A DNA stretch of 64,000 bases, from the NCBI GenBank assembly GCA_951801955.1, contig CATOOV010000005.1:1-64000 (forward strand), written 5' to 3'. This DNA is from an uncultured Lachnospiraceae bacterium (GTDB lineage Bacteria; Bacillota; Clostridia; Lachnospirales; Lachnospiraceae). Each line of letters starts with the position of its first letter. Positions within the stretch are counted from its first letter, which is position 1. Of the stretch, positions 16,156 through 30,600 are shown piece after piece. Made by a program: the position numbers and the translations under genes. Below the pieces are notes generated by a model. It saw nothing but the letters and a program-made list of their open reading frames with translations, was not told where the DNA came from and did not search any database.

Positions 16156-17077
16156 ATAATGGTGTGGAATAATACCTGTCGCCGCTGTCGGGCAGCAACG
16201 CCACAATAGTCTTTCCTTCCTGTTCTTTACGCTTTGCAAGTTCTATTGCCGCATACAAAGCGGCGCCTGAAGAAATCCCAACCAAGACCCCTTCTGTCTT
16301 TGCCATTTCCTTTCCCATCTCAAATGCCGCCTCATTCGCAACCGGAAAAACCTGGTCGTACACTTTGGTATTTAACGTATCTGGTACAAAGCCTGCGCCG
16401 ATTCCCTGAATTTTGTGCGGACCGCCCTTTCCCTCAGACAATATCGGGGATGCAGACGGTTCCACCGCAACCACCTTTATCTGAGGATTTTGGGACTTCA
16501 AATATTCGCCCACTCCAGTAATGGTTCCTCCTGTTCCAACGCCTGCCACAAAAATATCTACCTTTCCTTCGGTATCTTCCCATATTTCTGGACCAGTGGT
16601 ATCTCTGTGAATTTGCGGATTTGCCGGATTTTCAAATTGCCCTGGAAGAAAGCTGTTCGGAATCTCCTTTGCCAGCTCTTGTGCCTTTGCAATCGCCCCT
16701 TTCATACCTTTGCCGCCTTCCGTGAGAACTAATTTGGCGCCATATGCTTTTAAAATATTTCTGCGCTCCACACTCATGGTTTCTGGCATAGTAAGGATTA
16801 CCTGATACCCCTTTGCGGCTGCAATTGCCGCAAGACCGATTCCCGTATTTCCTGAAGTCGGCTCAATAATCACAGAGCCTTCCTTTAAAACCCCTTTTTT
16901 CTCTGCATCTTCAATCATAGCTTTGGCAATACGGTCTTTCACGCTTCCCGCCGGATTAAAATATTCCAATTTCACCAGCACTCTTGCCTTTAGACCATAC
17001 TTTTTTTCAATATTAACTACTTCCACCAATGGGGTATTTCCAATTAACCCCAAAGTTCCCTGATATATTCCAGACAT
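16145..17077 (-). CDS. cysK: Cysteine synthase A (O-acetylserine sulfhydrylase)
   Basis: A 310-residue fold-type II PLP enzyme making L-cysteine from O-acetylserine and sulfide. PNPLVEV-like IGNTPLVEV is at residues 12-20, the PLP lysine in [10 protein letters not shown] at about 43-52, and [10 protein letters not shown], which binds substrate carboxylate and phosphate, at about 74-83. The end ([14 protein letters not shown]) is standard, but the last two residues are encoded by an intergenic palindrome that carries the stop codon. The start follows AAGGAGGCAGGCAG. It lies about 210 bases downstream of metY on the same strand and may share its transcript. Confidence 0.95.
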
Positions 17078-17089
17078 TCTGCCTGCCTC

Positions 17090-17286
17090 CTTTATTCAGT
17101 TTTCCCTGATAACCCTTGGACTTTAAACTTATTTCACGGTTCGAAATGACCTTTAAAACTTATATGGTTCAAATTGACCTTTAAAACTTATATGGTTCCA
17201 AATGATCTTTAAAATTTATTTTATGGCTTGAAATGTTTCCATTAACCCTTTGGTAATATCATCCATACCTTAAAAACTTTCGTAAT
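17090..17286 (-). pseudogene. Remnant copy of the metY 3' end with tandem repeats
   Basis: Read on the minus strand, 17215-17268 encodes GMDDITKGLMETFQAIK and a TAA stop. This aligns with the metY C-terminus (IDDIIEDLEEAFQAVK, stop), which lies just upstream. Further downstream the sequence repeats a unit of about 29 bases ending TTTAAAGGTCA three to four times. The simplest reading is a duplicated metY tail that decayed and then expanded. No longer coding frame remains. Confidence 0.65.
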
Positions 17287-18594
17287 TTATTTTACCGCCT
17301 GAAATGCTTCCTCTAGATCCTCGATAATATCATCAATATGTTCTGTGCCAATGGACAGACGGATGCTATTTGGCGCAATTCCTTGTTCTTTCATTTCCAC
17401 CTCGTTTAGCTGGGCATGGGTGGTGGAAGCCGGATGGATGGCAAGAGATTTCACATCCGCTACATTTGCCAGAAGAGAAAATATTTCCAGGTTATCGATA
17501 AAGTCTTTTGCCGTCCGCTCATTTCCCTTTATCTCAAAGGTAAAAATAGAACCGCCTCCCTTGGGGAAATATTTCTGATATAATTCCTGCTGTCTTGGAT
17601 CTGTACTGACAGACGGATGATGTACCCTTTCCACCTGGGGATGGCTGTTTAAGTATTCTACCACCTTCAAAGCGTTTTCCACATGACGTTCCACCCGCAA
17701 AGACAAAGTTTCCAATCCCTGCAGAAAGATAAATGCATGGAACGGGGAAAGGGTTGCCCCTGTGTCTCTCAAGAGAATCGCGCGGATTTTTGTCACAAAA
17801 GCTGCTGCTCCAGCCGCCTTGGTAAAGCTGACACCGTGGTAGCTTGGATTGGGTTCGGTAAGGGAAGGAAATTTCCCGGATGCTTCCCAATCAAATTTTC
17901 CACTGTCTATAATTACGCCGCCAATAGCAGTTCCATGCCCTCCAATAAACTTGGTCGCAGAATGAATTACAATATCTGCCCCATGTTCTATGGGCCTTAC
18001 CAAAAATGGTGTGGCAAAGGTGCTGTCCACCACCAAGGGAATCTTATGCGCATGTGCAATCTCTGCAATTGCTTCTATATCGCTTACATCAGAATGGGGA
18101 TTACCCATCGTTTCAATATAAAGCGCCTTTGTCTGTTCCCTGATGGCTGTCTCAAAGTTTTCCACCTTGGAAGGGTCTACAAACGTTGTAGTGATACCAT
18201 ATTCTGGAAGGGTATGTTCCAGAAGGTTATAACTGCCGCCGTAAATATTGTTTGCTGCCACAATATGGTCCCCGCTCTTTGCAAGGTTTTGAATGGTATA
18301 TGTAACAGCCGCGGCTCCCGAAGCTACGGCAAGCGCTGCCACGCCTCCTTCCAAAGCTGCGATCCTTTGTTCAAAAATATCCTGGGTCGGATTTGTCAGC
18401 CTTCCATAAATATTTCCTGCATCCTCCAAACCAAACCTTGCTGCAGCATGGTCAGAATTGTGGAACACATAAGAAGAAGTGGCATAGATTGGCACCGCTC
18501 TGGCATCTGTAACTGGATCTGGCTCTTCCTGTCCTACATGTAACTGCAGCGTCTCAAATTTCAATGTTCTGTCTGTGTATGTCTTCTTACCCAT
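17287..18594 (-). CDS. metY: O-acetylhomoserine sulfhydrylase
   Basis: A 435-residue Cys/Met-metabolism PLP enzyme that converts O-acetylhomoserine plus a sulfur donor to homocysteine. It has the family features YGRLTNPTQDIFEQRIA near residue 63, the PLP lysine in VIHSATKFIGGHG at about 205-217, and the long region (FPSLTEPNPSYHG) that distinguishes MetY from MetB/MetC. The start follows AGAGGAGAAAACG. Downstream is cysK; upstream on the same strand are a JAMM peptidase, a ThiF-like E1 and a rhodanese-TtcA fusion. This is the same gene company as in Wolinella succinogenes, where MetY takes sulfur from a thiocarboxylated carrier protein. Confidence 0.95.
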   Translation of the reverse strand: MGKKTYTDRTLKFETLQLHVGQEEPDPVTDARAVPIYATSSYVFHNSDHAAARFGLEDAGNIYGRLTNPTQDIFEQRIAALEGGVAALAVASGAAAVTYTIQNLAKSGDHIVAANNIYGGSYNLLEHTLPEYGITTTFVDPSKVENFETAIREQTKALYIETMGNPHSDVSDIEAIAEIAHAHKIPLVVDSTFATPFLVRPIEHGADIVIHSATKFIGGHGTAIGGVIIDSGKFDWEASGKFPSLTEPNPSYHGVSFTKAAGAAAFVTKIRAILLRDTGATLSPFHAFIFLQGLETLSLRVERHVENALKVVEYLNSHPQVERVHHPSVSTDPRQQELYQKYFPKGGGSIFTFEIKGNERTAKDFIDNLEIFSLLANVADVKSLAIHPASTTHAQLNEVEMKEQGIAPNSIRLSIGTEHIDDIIEDLEEAFQAVK

Positions 18595-18702
18595 ATCGTT
18601 TTCTCCTCTTTTTCATATATTACTCCGTTTAAGATGCTTTGGAGTATGGTCTATATTTTCCTATTATTCCTACCGAGTTACTTGGTTATTTGATGTAAAA
18701 AT

Positions 18703-18743
18703 AATATAACCTATTTTTCACAAAGTGTCAATAGGTTATTTTT
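18703..18743 (-). promoter_or_regulatory. metY promoter with an operator-like palindrome
   Basis: On the minus strand TTGACA (18726-18731) is separated by exactly 17 bases from TATATT (18703-18708), 109 bases before the metY ATG. The inverted repeat AATAACCTATT / AATAGGTTAT overlaps the -35 and the start of the -10, so a bound repressor would block RNA polymerase. Rrf2-type regulators of sulfur genes (CymR) use AT-rich palindromes at such places; assigning CymR is inference. Confidence 0.7.
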
Positions 18744-18752
18744 ATTATATAG

Positions 18753-19067
18753 GATTCGGGTGTCAAAAGGTGGTTTTCAAAAGGAATATTGGCAAATTGC
18801 ACAAATGGATGCAAAACGTTGCGACTTGTCCTGACAGTTAGAATTTCTTTGTGTTCTGTTTTTGAAACAGCAATTTCCAAACACGATGTTTGGAAAAGGC
18901 TGATCTGAGCCATGGATGGCGAATATCAGCCGGTTGCGTAAATTTGCCATTCTTGTTTATCGAAACACTTAGAAATTCTTCTGTCTGGGACACTCGAAAC
19001 AACATTTGCATTTCTTTGTGCAATTTGTCAAGAAAGTTTTTAGGAACCACCTTTTGACACCCGAATC
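18753..19067. repeat. 315-bp interspersed element with 23-bp terminal inverted repeats
   Basis: The two ends are perfect inverted repeats of 23 bases, starting GATTCGGGTGTCAAAAG (18753-18775 and 19045-19067). The interior contains the palindrome TTTCCAAACA / TGTTTGGAAA. A 58-bp hairpin at 24491-24545 has related ends (GGTGTCAAAAGATGGTT), and the interior resembles 35685-35812. No transposase is present, so this looks like a non-autonomous MITE-like or structured repeat. The minus-strand frames inside it (18728-19050) are not genes. Confidence 0.75.
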
Positions 19068-19217
19068 TATATTAGGAAATTCCACCGAATTTCCTATATG
19101 ATAAAATAATATGCGCACACGCACAAGGGGAAAATATTGCTTCGCAATTGTGCTCGGCGCGGCACTGTATCCCCTTTGATATAATTTAGTTACTTGCCTC
19201 CTGTACTGGCGGAGCCT
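19068..19217. other. Gap after the JAMM peptidase with an unused ribosome binding site
   Basis: Just after the peptidase stop codon, the minus strand has ACAGGAGGCAAGTAA (about 19190-19204), a perfect Shine-Dalgarno sequence, but no start codon or frame of useful length follows. At 19070-19110 comes a TTTCCTATATG palindrome and then the 315-bp element. A small gene may once have followed here. Confidence 0.45.
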
Positions 19218-19634
19218 TCACCCATCTGATATAAGCGGCTCCTCCCATATCTGCCCGCCTTCCTCCACCCGAAATACAGTCAGTTCAGGCTCTTGTCCCA
19301 TCAAAGATAAAATCAAATAACGCAAACCCATATCATTCGCCAGGCGTATATCTTCTTTGGAAGGGCAGGAAGGGGAATTTGGATGTGAATGAAAATTTCC
19401 TAACAGAACAAAATCATGGGCTCGCATATCTTTTATCGCCGTAAACTGCTCTTTGGGATCCATAAAAAAATGTTCCCTGCCATGTTCCATATTCGTTAAA
19501 AAATACACTTTTTCCACATGGCAGTCCCCTCCATCCTTTGTACCTCCCAAAAGACCGCAGGCTTCTTCTGGGAGCCTCTGCCTGCAATATTTCACAATCA
19601 AATCATAATCCTGTTTCCTTAAATACAGCATCAT
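19218..19634 (-). CDS. JAMM/MPN+ metallopeptidase (M67 family, Mec/HcyD-like)
   Basis: A zinc peptidase of about 138 residues. The JAMM signature is complete: catalytic Glu in PEEACGLLGG (about residue 24), then GNFHSHPNSPSCPSKEDI. Bacterial members cleave an amino acid off the C-terminus of a ThiS-like sulfur carrier (Mec+ with CysO, HcyD with HcyS). The start is set at ATG 19634, or the adjacent ATG at 19631, because AGGAGG lies directly upstream; the longer frame from 19670 has no ribosome site and overlaps the E1 gene. It follows the E1 gene closely on the same strand. Confidence 0.85.
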   Translation of the reverse strand: MMLYLRKQDYDLIVKYCRQRLPEEACGLLGGTKDGGDCHVEKVYFLTNMEHGREHFFMDPKEQFTAIKDMRAHDFVLLGNFHSHPNSPSCPSKEDIRLANDMGLRYLILSLMGQEPELTVFRVEEGGQIWEEPLISDG

Positions 19635-19651
19635 CCCTCCTGACAGCGGTC

Positions 19652-20410
19652 CTAGGACGCTCCCCCACATACAGGGCAGTCTGGCACATGCACAGGAAGT
19701 TTTACGGTACGAAACTCCATTCTCAGTGCGTCGTATGTCAATAACTTCCCCACCAGCAAGTCGCCTGTTCCCAGCAGATACTTAACTGCCTCCATCGCCT
19801 GGAGGCTTCCAACCACTCCTGCCACTGCACCGACCACTCCTGCCTGCTTACAATTCGGCACTGTATGTTCTGGCGGTGGATTGCGGAATACACAGCGGTA
19901 ACAGGGTCCCTCCCCTGGTAAATACGTCATAAGCTGTCCTTGAAACCGCAGAATCCCTGCGTGGCAAAATGGCTTCTTCTCCAACACACATGTGTCATTA
20001 ATCAAAAATTTTGCTGGGAAATTATCAGTCGCATCCACAATAAAATCATAATCTGCAATCAATTCCATAATATTTTCATCGTTCACAAAAGTCTGGTACG
20101 CATGGACTGCGACATCTGGATTGATGTTTTGTATGGTTTCTTTTATGGAATGCACCTTTGGTTTCCCAATGTCACTTGTTCCATGTGCAATCTGCCTTTG
20201 GAGATTTGACAAATCTACCTCATCTGCATCTGCAATTCCAATCGTCCCCACTCCTGCCGCCCCAAGATACATGGCAACAGGGGATCCTAGCCCTCCGGCG
20301 CCAATAATTAAAACTTTCCCTTCCAGCAGCTTTCTTTGCCCTTGTGTTCCTACTTCCTGTAAAACCATCTGCCTGTGATACCGTGTTTTTTGTTCCTTGG
20401 TAAGCTCCAT
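19652..20410 (-). CDS. ThiF/MoeB/HcyF-type E1-like adenylyltransferase
   Basis: A 252-residue enzyme that adenylates the C-terminal glycine of a ubiquitin-like sulfur carrier. The ATP-binding motif GAGGLGSPVAMYLGAAGVG is at about residues 37-55, followed by DADEVDLSNLQRQ, DATDNF at about 125-130, and two zinc CxxC pairs (CYRC about 170, CPVC near the end). The same fold serves thiamine, molybdopterin and cysteine/homocysteine pathways. The neighbours metY, JAMM peptidase and rhodanese fusion favour homocysteine or cysteine synthesis here. No ThiS/CysO/HcyS-like carrier gene was found in the window. Confidence 0.88.
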   Translation of the reverse strand: MELTKEQKTRYHRQMVLQEVGTQGQRKLLEGKVLIIGAGGLGSPVAMYLGAAGVGTIGIADADEVDLSNLQRQIAHGTSDIGKPKVHSIKETIQNINPDVAVHAYQTFVNDENIMELIADYDFIVDATDNFPAKFLINDTCVLEKKPFCHAGILRFQGQLMTYLPGEGPCYRCVFRNPPPEHTVPNCKQAGVVGAVAGVVGSLQAMEAVKYLLGTGDLLVGKLLTYDALRMEFRTVKLPVHVPDCPVCGGAS

Positions 20411-20461
20411 CTTTTCTTCTCCTCTTTTTTCAACTTATCTATGATTCCTCTTTCTACCTCC

Positions 20462-21616
20462 TCAATATCCATCCAGAAAATGATGCAGCTCTCCATGAGC
20501 TTTGTAGGCAATGACAGTATTTAAATTTACATTTTCCACACTTCTGAAAATATTTGCCTCCACAAAGGGGTTCGTCTTTTTTAATTCTGCAATCAGCCGC
20601 TTAATTTCCATCCTCTTTGACAAATTCTGTCCTTCTGGTCCGCATGTGCTGCAGGCATCTGTAAACCGGCAGGCACACTGGAGAAAATACAGTTGATTGT
20701 AGTCCCGCCAATGTTTGATGTCCTCTTCGCGGATATAGTACATGGGGCGAATCAATTCCATCCCTTCAAAATTTGTACTATGCAGTTTTGGCATCATGGT
20801 CTGGACCTGACCGCCATATAACATCCCCATCAAAATAGTCTCAATCACATCATCATAGTGATGCCCCAACGCGATTTTATTGCAACCTAACTCTTTTGCT
20901 TTGTGATAGAGGTGTCCCCGCCGCATTCGGGCACAGAGATAACAGGGCGACTTTTCAACCTCATACACTGCATCAAAAATCTCTGTCTCAAATATGGTAA
21001 TGGGAATCTCCATAATCCTGGCATTATGTTCAATCACCTTGCGGTTTGCTTCACTGTAGCCTGGATCCATGACCAAAAAATTTAGTTCAAACGACACTTT
21101 CCGATGTTTTTGCAGTTCCTGGAACAATTTCGCCATTACCATGGAATCCTTTCCGCCTGAAATACAGACGGCAATCCGGTCTCCTTCCTGTACCAGCTTA
21201 TAATCCCGGACTGCTTTGGCAAACCGGGAAAAAAGCTGCTTATGGAATTTCTTGCGGATGCTCTTCTCAATCTCGGCGCCCCTCTGTTCTTTTCGGTTTA
21301 CAGATTCCTGCATCTGTGATATCAACCATCCATGATAACCGCCTTTTAATGAATATGCCTCAAATCCCTGCCTAACTAATTCCTCTGCCCTTTGACGGCT
21401 AAAAATCCCTTTGTTGCAATAAAGGATCAGTTTTTTATCCTTTGGAAACCCCTGTAACTTCTCTTTCCATTTCTCCTGGGAAACATGCAGCGCCTGTGGA
21501 ATCCCCCCATAAGACACGTCAAATTCCTCCCGGATATCCACCAAAAAGAAAGTACCTTCCCCCATCTTTTGTAAATCCTGGTATGTGATTTCCAGGTTTT
21601 CTGATTTAAGTTCCAT
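20462..21616 (-). CDS. Rhodanese - TtcA-like ATP-pyrophosphatase fusion
   Basis: A 384-residue two-domain protein. The N-terminal rhodanese domain (about residues 5-105) has the sulfur-carrying cysteine in LILYCNKGIFS (C67). The C-terminal PP-loop domain has CISGGKDSMV (about 151-160), then CYLC (C225, C228) and a later cysteine cluster, as in TtcA/TtuA proteins that bind an iron-sulfur cluster and thiolate tRNA or a carrier. The start at ATG 21616 is preferred because AGGAG lies about 10 bases upstream; the frame extends to 21673. The fusion suggests direct sulfur delivery. In this cluster it may supply sulfur to the carrier pathway; tRNA thiolation is the alternative. Confidence 0.82.
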   Translation of the reverse strand: MELKSENLEITYQDLQKMGEGTFFLVDIREEFDVSYGGIPQALHVSQEKWKEKLQGFPKDKKLILYCNKGIFSRQRAEELVRQGFEAYSLKGGYHGWLISQMQESVNRKEQRGAEIEKSIRKKFHKQLFSRFAKAVRDYKLVQEGDRIAVCISGGKDSMVMAKLFQELQKHRKVSFELNFLVMDPGYSEANRKVIEHNARIMEIPITIFETEIFDAVYEVEKSPCYLCARMRRGHLYHKAKELGCNKIALGHHYDDVIETILMGMLYGGQVQTMMPKLHSTNFEGMELIRPMYYIREEDIKHWRDYNQLYFLQCACRFTDACSTCGPEGQNLSKRMEIKRLIAELKKTNPFVEANIFRSVENVNLNTVIAYKAHGELHHFLDGY

Positions 21617-21814
21617 GCCACTTCTCCTGTGCATATTACGATTGACCTTTTCTTTTCCTTGTCCATTATACATGGAGAAGCAGCATTAAGCAAGAAACAT
21701 ATCTAAATCCCTTTATTTGCAGTTCCTCAAAGGCTTTCTCATTAAACAAAAAACAGTTCTGAATCCCTGTAATCCCCCACAGGCTTTTATCTCAATCAAA
21801 GTTCCACTTCCTAT

Positions 21815-23062
21815 TTAGTGAAAAGAAGGGTTCATCTGGTATACGCATAGGGTAATGGTTCCATCTTCGTTCCATAAAAAGGTTTCAATATAAACTTTTT
21901 CCTGCCCGCCAAAAATATTTTTCGCTTTTGCCATTCCCTCCTCATCTTTTTCTGAGAGCATCTCCACTGAAATTGTTGAGGAAGAACCCGCGCCATCTTC
22001 ACCAACCTGGTACTCATACGTAAGATTTCCCTCTGTATCTGGTGTCAATATCATTTCCTTTACAAGGCTGGCTTTCTTTTCAAAATCTGCCTTTTTCCAA
22101 TCACTGATTTCCTCTGAAACCCTTTCGAAAAAATCGTCTTCTTGGGACGTATTCGTTTTCTCCTCCTTTTGACCATCTTTTTTAGGAGAACGTTCTCCTG
22201 TTATATTCTCTTCTTCATCTTCTGCCCCATCTTCCTTCCACTTCATCTCCATCTCTCTGATGTAATCCTCGGCTGCCCGTTTATCTGCTTTCTTTTTCTC
22301 TAACGGCAGCGTAAACAAAGCATTGGTTCCTTGATACGATTCATTTCGGCTGATAGCGCCGCTTTCCTTGTCAAACTGATACGCCTCTGTGTTATAAAAT
22401 GTCCCATCACTGACACAAAGGAAAATTTCACGGTCTGCAAATATCTCCACATTATCGCACTCTGCAATCCGGTACTGGATTCCATCTTCTAGAATTTCAG
22501 AATAACAGCCATTCATAGTCACAATATTATACTGTGCTGGATCCAGCCCCTCAATCAACGGCGATATAAAAAATGGATCCTTGCCATAGCTTTCTTCACT
22601 GGTATCTGGTCTTGGCGTCCCATCTGTATGTTCAATTGCAGTTACCACATAAGTTCTGTCATCGTATACATTTCCTTGCCCATCCTGGCTGATAAATTCA
22701 CTCAAGCGCCTGCCAGAGACAATCCCAAGAAGTGTAATCCGATAATTGCCATACTCCTGGACTTCATGAACTGCCACTGCATCCTCACCGTTAAATGCTG
22801 CTGCCAACCCCTTGTCTTTTGTCACCTCTGCCACCTGCCCTGGGGTCAGGTATTTCCAAGCTGCGTATACAGTGAAAGAACCAACGGACAGTACCAATAC
22901 CGCAAGCGCTACCGCTGCCGGAATTCTTTTTCTTTTCTGTGTACCCATAATTTCTGCCTCCTTTTTCCAAGCTTTTTTTAATATCTCCTGATTTAATCTG
23001 TCATCTGGTTCTATTTTGGAAGAAAGGGCATATTTTAACAAATCATCCATATCATGTTTCAT
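21815..23062 (-). CDS. Membrane-anchored partner of the ECF sigma factor (anti-sigma-like)
   Basis: A 415-residue protein whose start overlaps the end of the sigma factor gene by 11 bases, with GGAGG nine bases upstream. Residues 1-45 are cytoplasmic and charged; a single membrane segment (AAVALAVLVLSVGSFTVYAAW) spans about 48-68; the rest is extracytoplasmic, with an acidic low-complexity stretch around 275-310. This architecture is typical of Clostridial DUF4179-type anti-sigma proteins. The signal it senses is unknown. Tight coupling to the sigma gene is the main support. Confidence 0.75.
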   Translation of the reverse strand: MKHDMDDLLKYALSSKIEPDDRLNQEILKKAWKKEAEIMGTQKRKRIPAAVALAVLVLSVGSFTVYAAWKYLTPGQVAEVTKDKGLAAAFNGEDAVAVHEVQEYGNYRITLLGIVSGRRLSEFISQDGQGNVYDDRTYVVTAIEHTDGTPRPDTSEESYGKDPFFISPLIEGLDPAQYNIVTMNGCYSEILEDGIQYRIAECDNVEIFADREIFLCVSDGTFYNTEAYQFDKESGAISRNESYQGTNALFTLPLEKKKADKRAAEDYIREMEMKWKEDGAEDEEENITGERSPKKDGQKEEKTNTSQEDDFFERVSEEISDWKKADFEKKASLVKEMILTPDTEGNLTYEYQVGEDGAGSSSTISVEMLSEKDEEGMAKAKNIFGGQEKVYIETFLWNEDGTITLCVYQMNPSFH

Positions 23063-23938: not shown

Positions 23939-23975
23939 TACCTAACACAACTGATCTTAAGAAAGGATAATGACA

Positions 23976-24470
23976 ATGCATACTCTGAAAGATCCCATCA
24001 TAGGAAAAAATGTTTTCATGGCTACCGGCGCCGTGGTCTGTGGTGATGTAACTTTAAAAGACAATGTTAATATCTGGTTTCACGCTGTTATCCGTGCAGA
24101 AAGTGGTTCCATCGTAATTGGAAAGGATTCCAACATTCAGGACGGATGCATCATCCATGTGGACCAGGGTGCAGACGTCACCATCGGAGAACAAGTCACA
24201 ATCGGGCATGGCGCAATTATCCATGGCTGTACCATTGGCGACTGCACACTAGTCGGCATGGGCGCCATCATCATGAATCATGCGGTAATCGGAAAAAACT
24301 GCATTGTTGCTGCTGGAGCCCTAGTCACGCAAAACACCATAATTCCAGACAACTCCCTGGTTCTTGGCAACCCTGCAAAAATAAAACGAACCGTTACAGA
24401 AGAAGAGATCTCCCATAACCGACAAAATGCAGAGACTTATTTGGAGGATGTAGCATATTATACCAGATAA
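23976..24470 (+). CDS. Gamma-class carbonic anhydrase-like hexapeptide-repeat protein
   Basis: A left-handed beta-helix protein of 164 residues (YrdA/PaaY/CaiE group). Hexapeptide repeats run from about residue 10 to 140 (IGKNVFMATGAVV, VTIGHGAIIHGCTIG). Three histidines in IIHVD, IGHG and IIHG form the expected zinc or iron site. Many members have carbonic anhydrase activity or are accessory acyltransferase-like proteins; the true activity is unknown. AAGGA lies eight bases before ATG 23976; an ATG at 23970 is also possible. It stands alone on the plus strand. Confidence 0.85.
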   Translation: MHTLKDPIIGKNVFMATGAVVCGDVTLKDNVNIWFHAVIRAESGSIVIGKDSNIQDGCIIHVDQGADVTIGEQVTIGHGAIIHGCTIGDCTLVGMGAIIMNHAVIGKNCIVAAGALVTQNTIIPDNSLVLGNPAKIKRTVTEEEISHNRQNAETYLEDVAYYTR

Positions 24471-24881: not shown

Positions 24882-25442
24882 ATGGAATACACAATCCTAT
24901 CTTTGAGAAAGAATCCAAAGATACTTGGTTTATTTTTAAAGGGACAAGAATACCAGCCATCCGTCAGCCGAGTTGATTTTTTTAATCAAGCAATCGAACA
25001 TGCTTTGTCATCACAAAGCAATTGGAAAAACTTATCAGGCGTAACCCTTGACTATCCCAAAGTTGACGCTTCCACTCCTCAATTCTTCCAGCTTAAAGTG
25101 GATAAAAATAAATGGAACCGTATTGTAGATGAAATAAAAAACTCTTTTTATCCACCGCTTAAAAGGACCACCGCCCCATATGCAGTGAAGCTTGTCTTGA
25201 CAAGCTACTTGCAATATTTATCAAATATACAGAAAGGCTATAAAGAAAATGCAGCGGATCATCATATGGATGAAGCGAAAACCAGAGAAACAGAATTAAG
25301 CAAACCAGAGATGGCAAAAATTCTTTGCGAGATGATGCTTACGGATGAGTGCAAAGAAATTAGAGAAATCCGTAAGCTTATGTTGGATTGGAGGAACGAT
25401 ACAAATGGCAATGATAACAAACGTATTCAAAAGGAACAATGA
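24882..25442 (+). CDS. Unrecognised 186-residue protein
   Basis: A clean open frame with AAGGAG eight bases before the ATG and a consensus promoter. I do not recognise the family. The sequence is mixed charged and helical; the segment KRTTAPYAVKLVLTSYLQYL (about residues 94-113) resembles the YxxKLLLTNYLxYL pattern of small plasmid or ICE maintenance and DNA-binding proteins, but that is weak. It is AT-rich compared with flanking housekeeping genes and lies just left of the island at 25921-30166. Its end overlaps the next small frame by 38 bases. Confidence 0.55.
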   Translation: MEYTILSLRKNPKILGLFLKGQEYQPSVSRVDFFNQAIEHALSSQSNWKNLSGVTLDYPKVDASTPQFFQLKVDKNKWNRIVDEIKNSFYPPLKRTTAPYAVKLVLTSYLQYLSNIQKGYKENAADHHMDEAKTRETELSKPEMAKILCEMMLTDECKEIREIRKLMLDWRNDTNGNDNKRIQKEQ

Positions 25443-25658: not shown

Positions 25659-25920
25659 TTTTTGAATAGTAAAATAAATTTTATATGTAAAATTTATTGC
25701 AACGCTCTTTTTAATGGTATAAAATATCTTTGATATATTTCATTTTTCTTGAAATACAAATTTAGAATTTACTTCAAATCCGCACCAAACTATGCTAATT
25801 TATGCAGATGTATGCAGAATTTGATTAAAATAAGCAAGAAAGGAAAATGCTCACAAAGCCAGTAAATACAAAGGTTTTGCAGAGATATGCAAGGTTATGC
25901 AAAATACGATAAAAATACTT
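25659..25920. other. AT-rich region left of the island with TATGCA repeats
   Basis: No gene. The motif TATGCA occurs repeatedly (about 25800-25900) beside the left attachment repeat, which is where integrase arm-binding sites would be expected. That role is inference. Confidence 0.35.
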
Positions 25921-25942
25921 TTCGTCTGCCACGGCAATATCT
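25921..25942 (+). repeat. Left attachment-site repeat (attL)
   Basis: A 22-bp sequence starting TTCGTCTGCC and ending GCAATATCT is identical to 30145-30166 inside the phosphatase gene. Flanking bases still encode IKILFVCHGNI, the phosphatase N-terminus, but the start codon position reads ACG and the frame ends quickly. This marks the original 5' end of the phosphatase gene, displaced by integration. Confidence 0.85.
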
Positions 25943-26131
25943 TGAAATGTTCCTGAAAAGTCTGTAAAATCAATGGTTTCACGGAAAATCAAGGCGCTTA
26001 CTATACCACTACTACACCATTTTTGAAAGAGCCTTGGAATGACAAAGTTAACAAAAAATCAATTTAGAAATTTTGTATAAATCTAAAATATATTGGATTA
26101 TGATGCAAATTGGACAGACACTGTCTATAAC

Positions 26132-26169
26132 AAAAAAAGGAATAAAGAGGTATTCTTATTCCTTTTTTG
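26132..26169. terminator. Bidirectional intrinsic terminator
   Basis: AAAAAAGGAATAA and TTATTCCTTTTTT form a stem with A- and U-tracts on both strands. It separates the left att region from the promoter of the P-loop gene. Confidence 0.75.
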
Positions 26170-26204
26170 TTGCAAAGAAGTAGCTAAACAAAGAAAATAT
26201 GAGA

Positions 26205-26310
26205 GTAATTTTTCAAAATATTCCTGTAAAACTATTGACAAGAAATATACGAAGTGTTATCTTAATCAAAGAAAGGGAATAATATACAAAAAATATTCTT
26301 GTAAATATCA
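26205..26310 (+). promoter_or_regulatory. Promoter of the P-loop gene, flanked by a direct repeat
   Basis: TTGACA (26235-26240), a 17-base spacer and TATCTT (26258-26263) lie 70 bases before the ATG. The sequence AAATATTCCTGTAAA just upstream and AAATATTCTTGTAAA downstream (about 26291-26307) form a direct repeat around the promoter, which could bind a regulator. Confidence 0.65.
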
Positions 26311-26332
26311 AAATAAGAGGGAGGAAAGTTTA

Positions 26333-28597
26333 ATGCAGGAATACAAAATCAATATGATTCTTGATGGCGGCTCGTACAAGGCATCATATACGAAAGATGG
26401 GAGGCAGTTGAAAGTAACTATTGGAAACGAAAAGGTTACTACAGTAATGGCTGCTCGTAAGGTGAGCAAAGAGGTTGAGGAACTTATGAATTCGTCTTTG
26501 GAATTAATAGATCTGAAAAAGATGTATGCAATAAATCGTGATGCTGAGCGGTGTGGTTACCATTGTTCAGTAATTAGGTTTCAGAATGTGTCGATTGAGA
26601 TTGCCGTAAAGATAATGTTTCCAGATAGCTATGAAGAATTTATAAAATCAGAAGACTTTTCTCAAATTAAGATTGAGGATAAACCGTTGGAAATCTTGAA
26701 CGTAGGGTGTACGGGTTCTGGTAAGACAAGGTTTATTCTAAGCGCAGTTCTTTCGAATAGCGCGTTGAAAAATTTTGTACCAGCATTGACAAGTTTAAAG
26801 GAAACTACGGCATGCTCGATTGTATACCATATTAATTCATCGACTCAGGAAATGCCAAAAGAGTGTGATTTTAAACTAATTGTTGAATTAAAAAGCAAAG
26901 AAGAGATTTATGTTAGTATTAAAGCTTTAATTGTCGAAGCAGTAGAGGAATACATTGTTACGATTAAAGAAAATTGCAAAAAGATTTCTGTTCTTTCTGA
27001 ATTGTGCAAAAAGTGTAGGGGCACTGTGGCAAAAAGATTAGAATTGAATTATGACAAAACATTTGGGTTAGGAATCAGAAATCTTAATAATAGCCTTTCG
27101 GTTTCAATAGAGGAGCTGACCAAAAGTGCGTTGATTGATTTTTATGGAAGCAGCAAATCAATTGATAAAATGGCAGAGAAGGATAGTGATTTTATTATTA
27201 AACAGCTGATTCGTGATTACGAAGATGAACAGTTTGATATCAGCAGTGATGAAATTGAAGCTATGCTCGAAGCATATAATAACGAGGCTATGATTACAAC
27301 AATATATTCCGAATTAGAGAAAGATCTGGAGGCGTATAATAAAGAATATTCTTCAGAATCGAGTATAGGAGAGATTCTAACTTATTTTGGGCATACTGAG
27401 GATGCAAAGACGTTAGATTACTTGAGCCATGTGTTTGGTAATAAGAGTAAGCAGAGGAAAGGCGATTTTTACACAATTGAACCTGTTGTAAAGAAGGCGG
27501 AATTTTATTTGCAGATAAAGAATATGTCATATGATAGAGAGATTATTCTATCAGACAGTATAGGAATAAATCAGGGACAAAAAGATGCGGCAAGAATTAG
27601 TGAAGTTGTCTTTAATCGCGTTCAGGAAGCTGTACAAAGCAGAAAACCGGATATTATCTTGTATCATACAAAATTAAATAATAAGGATGATTATATGCTT
27701 GACATAATAAAGAAGTTGAATGCTCAGGGTTATGGTCAGTCTACTTATGTTGTTGCCGGAAGGTTGGATGAAGTCCTTTCTACATATTTAACGGATAAGT
27801 ATATGGAGAAGGACGATATGACAGAAGCGATATTTGATGATTTTGTAGAGGAGACAAAACAAATCTATGTTGATTCGGACAGTGTGACATTAAATTCCAT
27901 TATTGGTGAAAAATACTTAATTTGCGATAAAACAAATAAGATTGCAGAAAATGCAGATTATGCGTTCAAGTATACTTGTCCGATGATTTTGGAACATGTG
28001 ATTACGGAGGTCTTAGGAATTGAAAAAAGCAATTGTCATTATGATGATGTAGATTTCATGGAGATAATTCAGAATAATGATGTAGCAGGAAATGTGTATA
28101 GAAATTATTTGGATAGTATACCGCGAATGATTCCGTTAGCTTACAATCAAATGCGGTGGAATACATTGCAGAGAGCTATTGAGGAATTGCGTTGGGATGG
28201 ATACGGATTTGACGTATTATATCCAGCATTTAATATTAAGAATGCTATAGCGTATGAATTAAATCGGGATGAAATCAGAAGTGAATTTGCCAAGAAATTT
28301 AGAGAAGATGCAGAGGAAATGAAGCGCAGATACTTACTTGAAGTGGCTGAAGTTGCACAGATAGTACTAGTAACAGAGTATCGTATGCTGATGAAACGTT
28401 TATTGGCAATGCGCAATGATATAGTTTATCGCACAAACCTGAATTTAACAATGACAGATGATAGGAAGTACAACTTACATCGTTTATACAATACCTGTTT
28501 GGAGCAGGATGGTGTAAAAGGTGCATATGTATTGAAAATTGTATTTCATATCGCGTGGATTCGAACACTTGAGTATTTTAAGAGAAAAGCAGGATAA
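26333..28597 (+). CDS. Large P-loop protein with dynamin-like GTPase motifs, unknown family
   Basis: A 754-residue cytoplasmic protein I cannot assign to a family. The Walker A/G1 motif GCTGSGKT is at 125-132. Threonines in LKETTACS (about 155-162) could serve as G2, DSIG at 408-411 fits G3 (DxxG), and TKLN at 446-449 resembles the dynamin G4 TKLD with Asn for Asp. About 275 residues separate G1 and G3, far more than in ordinary GTPases, so a large insertion or another NTPase type is possible. The C-terminal 250 residues are charged and probably helical. No membrane segment is clear. The start follows GGGAGGAAAG; an upstream in-frame extension to 26093 runs through the promoter and terminator and is rejected. 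It is the sole large cargo of the island, which suggests phage defence or element maintenance. Confidence 0.85.
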   Translation: MQEYKINMILDGGSYKASYTKDGRQLKVTIGNEKVTTVMAARKVSKEVEELMNSSLELIDLKKMYAINRDAERCGYHCSVIRFQNVSIEIAVKIMFPDSYEEFIKSEDFSQIKIEDKPLEILNVGCTGSGKTRFILSAVLSNSALKNFVPALTSLKETTACSIVYHINSSTQEMPKECDFKLIVELKSKEEIYVSIKALIVEAVEEYIVTIKENCKKISVLSELCKKCRGTVAKRLELNYDKTFGLGIRNLNNSLSVSIEELTKSALIDFYGSSKSIDKMAEKDSDFIIKQLIRDYEDEQFDISSDEIEAMLEAYNNEAMITTIYSELEKDLEAYNKEYSSESSIGEILTYFGHTEDAKTLDYLSHVFGNKSKQRKGDFYTIEPVVKKAEFYLQIKNMSYDREIILSDSIGINQGQKDAARISEVVFNRVQEAVQSRKPDIILYHTKLNNKDDYMLDIIKKLNAQGYGQSTYVVAGRLDEVLSTYLTDKYMEKDDMTEAIFDDFVEETKQIYVDSDSVTLNSIIGEKYLICDKTNKIAENADYAFKYTCPMILEHVITEVLGIEKSNCHYDDVDFMEIIQNNDVAGNVYRNYLDSIPRMIPLAYNQMRWNTLQRAIEELRWDGYGFDVLYPAFNIKNAIAYELNRDEIRSEFAKKFREDAEEMKRRYLLEVAEVAQIVLVTEYRMLMKRLLAMRNDIVYRTNLNLTMTDDRKYNLHRLYNTCLEQDGVKGAYVLKIVFHIAWIRTLEYFKRKAG

Positions 28598-28775
28598 TGT
28601 GGTGGTAGAGGCTGTTAGTATTCTAGGGCAAACCCCTTTTCCGATTCCCTAATGCCAAACGCAGAGAGTTGGTTATCTCAAAGGATACTTACTTTAGAAT
28701 GAGCTATGTTTAATTGAACAAAGTTCCTTCTGCTCCTTGTGGCAATAATATTTTCAATTTAACTCATTTGGTTCA

Positions 28776-28828
28776 TCATAAGATTAGCACATCTTCTATT
28801 TGGTTGGTTTGATGTGGTAATCTTATGA
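28776..28828. terminator. Inverted repeat after the P-loop gene
   Basis: TCATAAGATTAGCACATC and GATGTGGTAATCTTATGA pair over 17 of 18 bases around a 17-base loop. It lies about 180 bases downstream of the P-loop gene and could be its terminator, though no long U-run follows. The rest of 28598-29019 holds only a smaller hairpin near 28971 and no gene. Confidence 0.45.
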
Positions 28829-29019
28829 TACCAAGGATGTGGTGCTTTTTATGTCAAGATACCAGTTTTATTGGTGGGAAAGTTGAGTAAATTGTATTAA
28901 AGGCAGCGATATTTTAACAATTAATCCATGAGGTGAGTTTTTTCGATAACAAACCCAGGAATCAGAAATACCTCCATTTGAAATGGGGGTAACTACATTT
29001 TTTACAATTTTTCATTTGT

Positions 29020-29187
29020 TTATACTTGTTCACAGTCAAAGCTATTTGGTACGATGCCGCACAAAACATTAATGCTATTTTCACTGTCTTCAGTATTTTC
29101 ATTATATTCGCGCATAGCTTTATTAATTTGAATACATAATGAATATAATATATCGTCTTTTAGATTGCTTTTTTGGTTTTCACTCAT
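29020..29187 (-). CDS. Small hypothetical protein, possibly truncated
   Basis: A 55-codon frame from ATG 29187, in which the acidic segment YNENTEDSENSINV (about residues 31-44) is followed by a sensible ending. The frame stays open upstream to about 29253, so this ATG may be internal to a gene cut off where the integrase sequence begins (29241). No family is recognised. It is divergent from the integrase fragment and has only a weak ribosome site. Confidence 0.4.
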   Translation of the reverse strand: MSENQKSNLKDDILYSLCIQINKAMREYNENTEDSENSINVLCGIVPNSFDCEQV

Positions 29188-29240
29188 ATCATACCCATCT
29201 TCATATTTATTATAAATATCACCAATTGTTGAATCAATAG

Positions 29241-29957
29241 GTATTTGATTTTAAGCTGGTTGATGTCGTGCCAAACGATTCACAAAAACGTATCGCCATG
29301 ACAGAGGAACAGCAGGAACTTTGGATGGGGTTTATCCGAAATGATAAAACCTATGCAAAGTATTATGATGAATTTGTCGTGCTGTTGGGGACGGGAATGC
29401 GTGTCAGTGAATTTTGTGGCTTGACAAAAAGTGATTTGGATTTTGAAAGCCGGAAAATCCGTGTAGATCATCAGCTTGTCAGGGAACGGGGCGGAAAATA
29501 TTATGTTGAGAAAACAAAGACCGAGTGCGGATGCCGCTTTATTCCCATGATAGAAGAAGTCTATCGAAGTATGAAAAATATCCTTGTCAATCGTAAGAAG
29601 TTGAAAACAGAAATGATTGTTGACGGATACAGCAGCTTTCTTCTGCTGGACAAGGATGATAAGCCAAAAGTAGCATTACATATCGAAAATGAAATACGGT
29701 GGGCAATGAAGAAATACAAGAAACTTTATCCTGAAAAACCATTGCCGCATACCACACCTCATGTATTCCGACATACGTTCTGTACCAATATGGCAAATGC
29801 AGGCATGGATATTAAGACCTTGCAGTATGTAATGGGACATTCCGATGTAGGCGTTACACTGAATGTCTATACTCATGCCAGCTATAACCGTGCGGCGGAG
29901 CAGATGGCAAAGATTTTAGACTTCAAAGAAGCGGATATGCATGGAAAACAGAGATAA
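29241..29957 (+). pseudogene. int: 5'-truncated Tn916-type tyrosine integrase
   Basis: The catalytic domain of a phage-type tyrosine recombinase, about 238 residues. Catalytic residues are present: Arg in TGMRVSEFCGL, HVFRHTFC (HxxR), GHSDVG and the nucleophile Tyr in NVYTHAS. The N-terminal DNA-binding and core-binding domains of about 150 residues found in Tn916-like integrases are missing. Homology begins at 29241 (VFDFKLVDV), directly after a TAG stop and next to unrelated DNA, so the gene was cut by a rearrangement. A GTG at 29268 could start a 229-residue product. It reads toward the right attachment site. Confidence 0.85.
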
Positions 29958-30129
29958 TCAGGTTGAGAAGTACACTAATCTACTACACCAATTACTACAC
30001 CATTTGCCCGTAAATTTGCGTAGATTTATAACGAATTACACAGATTAAGGGTAAAAAACCAAAAATGAAAAATGCGCCAGAAAGCTTGAAATATCAAGGT
30101 TTGAAGGCTTATGAAGGGATATAAAAGAT

Positions 30130-30600
30130 ATGATTAAAATATTATTCGTCTGCCACGGCAATATCTGCCGTTCACCTATGGCGGAATTTGTAATGAAAGA
30201 CATTATAAAAAAACAGAATATTGCAAATAAATTTTATATTGCAAGCGCTGCAACCAGCACTGAAGAAATTGGAAATCCCGTTCATTATGGAACCCGAAAT
30301 AAACTGTCGCAGGTAGGTATTTCCACAGCAGGAAAATATGCAGTGCAGATGAAGCGTAGCGACTATAAAGATTATGATTATTTAATTGGAATGGATAACT
30401 GGAACTATCGGAATATGCTTCGGATTGTAGGGGCAGATAAAGAGCAAAAATTGAGCCTGCTTTTGGATTATACAGATCATCCGAGAGATGTAGCTGACCC
30501 CTGGTATACTGGAGATTTTGATAAAACTTATGAGGACGTGGTGGCAGGCTGCCAAGGATTTCTGGCATATCTGCGAGAACAAGGAAAATTGAATGACTAA
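30130..30600 (+). CDS. Low-molecular-weight protein tyrosine phosphatase
   Basis: A 156-residue phosphatase. The P-loop C(X)5R is at the N-terminus (FVCHGNICRSPMAE; Cys8, Arg14) and the general-acid loop DPWYTGDFDKTYED near residue 120. Such enzymes dephosphorylate tyrosine kinases that control capsule and exopolysaccharide synthesis, or stress proteins. The first 12 codons overlap the right attachment repeat, so the present start codon and upstream DNA come from the island. The frame is intact. Confidence 0.92.
   Translation: MIKILFVCHGNICRSPMAEFVMKDIIKKQNIANKFYIASAATSTEEIGNPVHYGTRNKLSQVGISTAGKYAVQMKRSDYKDYDYLIGMDNWNYRNMLRIVGADKEQKLSLLLDYTDHPRDVADPWYTGDFDKTYEDVVAGCQGFLAYLREQGKLND
30145..30166 (+). 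repeat. Right attachment-site repeat (attR)
   Basis: Identical over 22 bp to 25921-25942. It lies in codons 6-13 of the phosphatase, covering the catalytic CHGNI(C) region, a conserved target for a site-specific integrase. Upstream, ACTACACCA occurs twice (about 29980-30000) and once near 26007, possible integrase arm sites. Confidence 0.85.

Follow-up and report, generated by a model that had tools for sequence, protein, structure and literature searches.

Integrase-only islands that carry defence genes, and the hotspots that hold them, are described for Escherichia coli (PMC10121019). They resemble the locus analysed here in that a small island lies next to an integrase at a fixed gene and has a variable, partly defence-related cargo, whereas here the target is a phosphatase gene, the host would belong to another phylum, and a truncated integrase accompanies a cargo that matches no known system. 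Another counterpart is an element with restriction-modification and Dodola genes at the same site in a related genome (locus L062). For the protein itself, the closest described systems are bacterial dynamin-like proteins such as DynA and LeoA, and DynA of Bacillus subtilis is reported to delay lysis after phage infection (PMC8844932).

The locus lies in a 64,000-nucleotide stretch of a contig from an uncultured Lachnospiraceae bacterium, which we call the window. Direct repeats at the start of a tyrosine phosphatase gene, at its 5' end, enclose an open reading frame on the forward strand (26333-28597) that encodes a protein of 754 residues, with no inner stop. The original prediction took it for an unrecognised P-loop protein, the sole cargo of a phosphatase-targeted island. 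We suspect, with a probability of roughly 0.4, that this orphan is a GTPase-like NTPase that acts as a single-gene defence cargo.

The protein shares with the bacterial dynamin-like group its large size and P-loop, the register of the G1 and DxxG motifs, a switch threonine and an insert between G2 and G3, as well as a helix-rich C-terminal part in low-confidence predicted secondary structure. Unlike those proteins, it has no match to Dynamin_N, carries DSIG in place of DxPG and has an atypical G4, and its distance from G1 to G3 is about twice the longest among seven dynamin-like proteins compared.

The phosphatase gene as an integration site

The target is a gene for a low-molecular-weight (LMW) protein tyrosine phosphatase on the forward strand (30130-30600; Pfam LMWPc, 2.2e-34). 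The att-like repeats at 25876-25942 and 30100-30166 end in 22 identical nucleotides (25921-25942 and 30145-30166), and, with up to two mismatches allowed, the 15-nt att core has only two copies in the window, against a chance expectation of 0.08. The right repeat, on the forward strand, overlaps the phosphatase gene as far as codon 13, and its identical end corresponds to codons 6-13; therefore, the element supplies the first codons of the phosphatase together with the upstream region.

Counting the window's own genome, 34 of 41 genomes have the phosphatase, and 20 phosphatase loci were compared, 19 from the same genus and one (L066) from another family of the same order. In 14 of the 20, the phosphatase has a homologue of the window's integrase on its upstream side; the six loci counted as misses are L049, L057, L063, L064, L065 and L066, and two of these, L057 and L063, have nearly no upstream sequence. 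Extra upstream copies of the att core, with one to four mismatches, are present in L058, L060, L062 and L064, and a match with three mismatches in L049 is probably due to chance. In this genus, integration has recurred at the 5' end of the LMW phosphatase gene, and the prediction of a phosphatase-targeted island is supported. Occupants include prophage-like and mobilizable elements (judged by eye) with matches to restriction, PglZ, Dodola and Fic genes.

The site in the window was itself used more than once, given that the sequence flanking the island on its left (25768-25940) shares 87% identity with a stretch of L053 that runs from behind an integrase into the phosphatase start, and that the L053 element, prophage-like by eye, differs from the present island. 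The segment 25768-25942 (forward strand) combines the right end of an older element with the left att repeat of the island. A remnant of the older integrase is not claimed, as only a 12-residue likeness (E 0.14) was seen at about 25605. We found no relevant report of an integration hotspot at a phosphatase gene in the open-licence literature of PubMed Central; the site could be mined for variable, partly defence-related cargo across many genomes of this genus.

Eighteen cargo proteins were picked by eye from nine of the 20 loci, and five of these nine gave PADLOC matches at E <= 1e-15: a type II methylase, DolA and DolB in L062, GmrSD-type and HEC-06 in L050, FRG and PDC-S15 in L056, PDC-M46A/B in L061, and Fic and PDC-S04 in L049. 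We take the PDC labels to denote predicted candidates rather than tested systems. L064 was slightly over the limit (5.4e-15), L060 reached 1.9e-5, and the tested cargo proteins of L048 and L059 had no PADLOC match. Defence genes are thus among the occupants of the site in related genomes, including the sister element of L062, where a cytosine methylase is paired with an endonuclease of the Bpu10I type and accompanied by DolA and DolB. A less selective comparison covered all retained open reading frames of at least 150 codons, 75 from eight occupied sites (105,728 nt) and, as a control, 79 from other stretches of the same eight contigs (105,008 nt). At E <= 1e-15, 92 PADLOC models were matched at the site and 33 in the control, and among the first 25 matches listed per set the labels suggest about seven and about four different proteins, respectively. 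The enrichment was not accepted as proof of function because the control stretches contain defence genes too (MTase, AbiEi and PDC-S01). The location gives moderate support to a defence reading, and the site's bias towards defence genes is a modest one.

The island and its orphan gene

Inwards from their own left att copies, L062 is 79% identical to 25886-26048 of the window and L064 is 77% identical to 25894-26114, so that 25943-26114 (forward strand) is a left end common to sister elements. Towards the right end lies a 5'-truncated tyrosine integrase of 229 codons on the forward strand (29244-29957). Its in-frame start at 29244 corresponds to residue 162 of a 401-codon relative in L062, so that 161 residues are missing from its beginning, and it ends three residues short of the relative's end, with 84.6% identity over 240 columns. 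The L062 element has the same integrase family, site and a similar left end, but it is about 13 kb long and has relaxase-like and primase-like genes (by eye), and its cargo is absent from the window island. The IMG/VR contig L102 encodes an integrase of 414 codons, and its DNA is 89.5% identical to 29244-30166 of the window and no further left. A 76-residue open frame on the minus strand (29020-29250), probably a fragment of another gene, spans the truncation point. We suspect a deletion or replacement at about 29243, because the integrase homology to L062 and L102 starts at 29244 and the minus-strand frame crosses this junction.

The element's own integrase should not be able to mobilise it any more, and the island is an immobile remnant of an integrative element. 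The direct att repeats at the target gene are as the original prediction described them, but the element is a remnant rather than a working one. Similarly, the orphan gene is intact and alone, but it is not quite the sole content between the att repeats, where the integrase piece is also found.

The orphan gene lies in AT-rich DNA (32-34% GC in 26000-27999, against 42-47% in 17000-22999 of the window), and its ATG is preceded by a strong ribosome site, GGGAGGAAAG. Upstream, a promoter-like region on the forward strand (26215-26305) contains TTGACA-17-TATCTT at 26235-26263 with an extended TG, bracketed by 16-nt direct repeats (26215-26230 and 26290-26305) that are identical at 15 of 16 positions. 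The original prediction had noted the AT richness, the ribosome site, the promoter and its flanking repeat, and all are present, but promoter-like sites are common in the window (30, against 20.3 +/- 4.0 in shuffled sequences), so that the site alone proves nothing. Better support for a promoter comes from the homologue described below (L001), where a site of the same layout stands at the same place. The two share TTGAC[AT], a 17-nt spacer, TATCTT or TATTAT and the extended TG, and they begin 98 nt (window) and 95 nt (L001) before the ATG; the L001 scan gave no more promoter-like sites than shuffles did (2 against 1.9). The 16-nt repeat has 14 matches in the window at up to three mismatches where 4.07 are expected, and the copies around the promoter-like site may form an operator. 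Its conservation in the homologue does not exceed chance, and a conserved operator is not supported, given a single L001 copy with two mismatches and at least one copy in 79 of 200 shuffles.

Behind the gene, 170 nt past the stop codon, RNA folding predicts a strong hairpin on the forward strand (28767-28835; -30.3 kcal/mol, z = -5.27, with none of 200 shuffles as low) that has a T run at 28846-28850 and may be a terminator; it is absent from the list of the terminator scan. Given the promoter-like site in both copies and the hairpin behind the window gene, the orphan gene looks like a single transcription unit.

Protein family and proposed nucleotide domain

None of Pfam, NCBIfam, PADLOC and PHROGs gives an acceptable match for the orphan protein, and no PADLOC family reaches E <= 1. 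Dynamin_N is absent from the Pfam matches at E <= 1 (full length) and at E <= 10 (segments), in scans whose filters remove most weak matches. Below the Pfam cut-off, the P-loop matches include Pox_A32, AAA_7 and Microtub_bd, and no GTPases. Plasmids and phages held no homologue at E <= 0.01, viral contigs held none when scanned with the orphan protein, its alignments and the L001 protein, and sequence searches of the PDB with the single protein and with its P-loop segment gave no match. Two candidates were rejected, namely the NCBIfam family acidic_w_LPXTA (E 7.7e-4; 18.8 bits, where the cut-off is 50) and a BEN-domain protein of the PDB, taken as chance (E 0.0037 with one segment profile, 0.029 with the full profile). 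Since a clear match to a characterised family was sought in these collections and none appeared, the description of the family as unrecognised stands.

Whole-genome searches of overlapping sets (145, 397, 392, 391 and 299 genomes) returned the window copy and five weak matches, none of them convincing. Three (E 1.7e-4 to 3.7e-4) fall on MurB-like housekeeping genes (named by eye), that in genome G549 (7.0e-4) has three stops, and that in G934 (2.8e-4) is a 380-codon frame that lacks a P-loop and adjoins a helicase-like frame (by eye). The one true relative, L001, comes from a Lachnospiraceae metagenome-assembled genome and was obtained by scanning genome contigs with exact 8-residue patterns, a procedure that distant relatives would escape. 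It too has 754 residues, aligns from end to end without gaps and is 67% identical. The best-conserved block, 401-450, holds DSIG (46 of 50 residues identical), and GCTGSGKT, ETT, DS[IV]G and GRLDE are all kept. With a third-position excess and with pN at 0.21 and pS at 0.85 per site (synonymous sites being saturated), both copies are under purifying selection and thus maintained. The L001 contig starts 326 nt upstream of the gene, no mobile element is visible around it, and seemingly unrelated genes follow (a metallophosphatase and a sensor kinase, by eye). Homologues gathered mainly in conserved housekeeping loci, which would have spoken against the original prediction, did not appear, this one relative lying at the end of its contig. 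The orphan gene stands alone in both contexts, in agreement with the expectation of a single-gene system. In these searches, the protein is very rare, and the window copy, which is intact, matches no curated model.

We use the motif names G1 to G4 in their generally known sense. Walker A, or G1, is GCTGSGKT at 125-132 in the window protein and is identical in L001; ETT at 157-159, assigned by eye, is a possible G2; and the G3 candidate is DSIG at 408-411 (DSVG in L001), which keeps the Asp and Gly and lacks the Pro of dynamins. The original prediction located GCTGSGKT, DSIG and TKLN (446-449) correctly in the translation, but its use of TKLN as G4 is probably wrong. TKLN departs from a strict [NT]KxD and lies only 38 residues beyond G3. 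Of seven bacterial dynamin-like proteins of the same genomes that were scanned for the pattern, four have a G4 candidate, 58-64 residues beyond G3, and the other three gave none. We propose that GRLD at 476-479 holds the G4 position. It is part of an [AS]GRLDE stretch common to the window protein and L001, lies 68 residues after DSIG at a strand end in a low-confidence model, and fits better than TKLN, though it is not [NT]KxD; in the dynamin-like proteins, G4 is often degenerate as well (NWWN, NCSN). The distance from G1 to G3 is 283 residues, against 93-142 in the seven dynamin-like proteins, and the low-confidence secondary structure places a helix-rich insert of some 180 residues at about 190-370. 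Both AlphaFold models of the protein have low confidence (pLDDT 36.5 and 43.3).

For profile tests, the two halves of the proposed nucleotide domain were joined with the helical insert taken out. Against bacterial dynamin-like proteins, the joined query aligned with G1 to G3 in register and scored 31.3, which none of 60 shuffles of the second half reached (maximum 26.2). The alignment probability was low, at 13.7%, and it varied from 1.7 to 19.3% across 25 join points, so that the alignment depends on where the halves are joined. With the same query, absolute scores were higher for FtsK (39.4) and for TraG (44.0, in 19 columns around the P-loop), and across the tests with the protein they ranged over 39-41 and 44-45, respectively. 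However, the real score was reached by 37 of 60 second-half shuffles for FtsK and 23 of 60 for TraG, as it was by 28 of 60 for a small GTPase-like set (L073). Because the second half adds nothing to the FtsK and TraG scores, their likeness is that of the P-loop alone, whereas the dynamin-like one is not confined to it. A small-GTPase set of the Era/EngA/TrmE type gave nothing (13.4). Once the P-loop is allowed for, the profiles favour dynamin-like proteins, with whose GTPases the original prediction had compared the motif set, over FtsK and TraG, but weakly and without Dynamin_N. We consider the orphan protein to be probably a GTPase-like P-loop NTPase and do not file it as a dynamin.

Possible roles of the orphan gene

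In our preferred reading, the orphan gene is an intact cargo with its own promoter-like site, in a decayed integrative element parked in the recurrent site at the 5' end of the phosphatase gene. Its nucleotide domain would consist of a strand, P-loop and helix (118-145), the switch ETT, the helix-rich insert, DxxG and GRLD, and the C-terminal part beyond it would be mostly helical. Large NTPases of this sort often work by assembling with themselves, in a nucleotide-dependent manner, on membranes or on target complexes. The most likely job would be that of a single-gene defence which protects the host, and the element residing in it, from phages or competing mobile DNA, and a new defence protein is a plausible reading of the gene and our best guess. 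More tentatively, and with considerable doubt, we suggest that the protein belongs to a so far undescribed family of large proteins that depend on GTP and have a long helical insert interrupting the nucleotide domain, and that it forms on its own a mobile anti-phage or anti-element system. If true, this would add a solo defence protein family that is invisible to current defence catalogues, given that two members were found and that the window protein matches no curated model.

The alternative that survives best, although we doubt it, is an accessory gene for host fitness or regulation, involved neither in defence nor in element maintenance. Islands at this site also carry genes that PADLOC does not match, such as the tested ones of L048 and L059, and defence-type genes occur in the control stretches as well. 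Against this, a lone large nucleotide-binding protein, in a mobile element whose nearest sister has two defence systems, would be an unusual metabolic cargo.

It is unlikely that the protein is an ASCE-type ATPase of the FtsK/HerA or conjugation-related kind, left behind by a module that served to transfer or maintain the element before its decay. The P-loop form GxTGSGKT is typical of this class, the TraG and FtsK scores are higher in absolute terms than the dynamin-like one, Pox_A32 and AAA_7 are among the sub-cut-off matches, and the intact integrase relative in L102 adjoins a DnaC-like gene (by eye). Apart from this Walker A, however, neither the profile shuffles nor Pfam indicate a family likeness beyond the P-loop, the TraG match being confined to its 19 columns. 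Moreover, there is no acceptable Pfam or NCBIfam match, inspection by eye found no hhhhDE-type Walker B, and the gene stands alone in both contexts.

A true member of the dynamin superfamily, remodelling membranes like DynA or LeoA, is more improbable still, as the G1-G3 register, the spacing of GRLD, the degenerate G4 of the compared proteins and the delayed lysis seen with DynA speak for it, but Dynamin_N is unmatched, G3 lacks its Pro and the distance from G1 to G3 is far outside the range of those proteins.

Some further features of the site and its surroundings were observed. In L058, L060 and L064, the extra att cores point to small cassettes with att sites at both ends, which could be mobilised in trans; between two cores, L064 has Schlafen-type AlbA_2, RecG-C-type and acetyltransferase-like frames and no integrase match. 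Beside the window island, a 186-residue open reading frame (24882-25442) weakly matches the PADLOC family PD-Lambda-2_A (E 0.0018) and has no Pfam match. A hexapeptide-repeat, gamma-carbonic-anhydrase-like gene (by eye) lies to the left of the island on the forward strand (23970-24470), whereas in most relatives it lies to the right of the phosphatase on the minus strand, so that phosphatase and island together appear inverted with respect to this gene.
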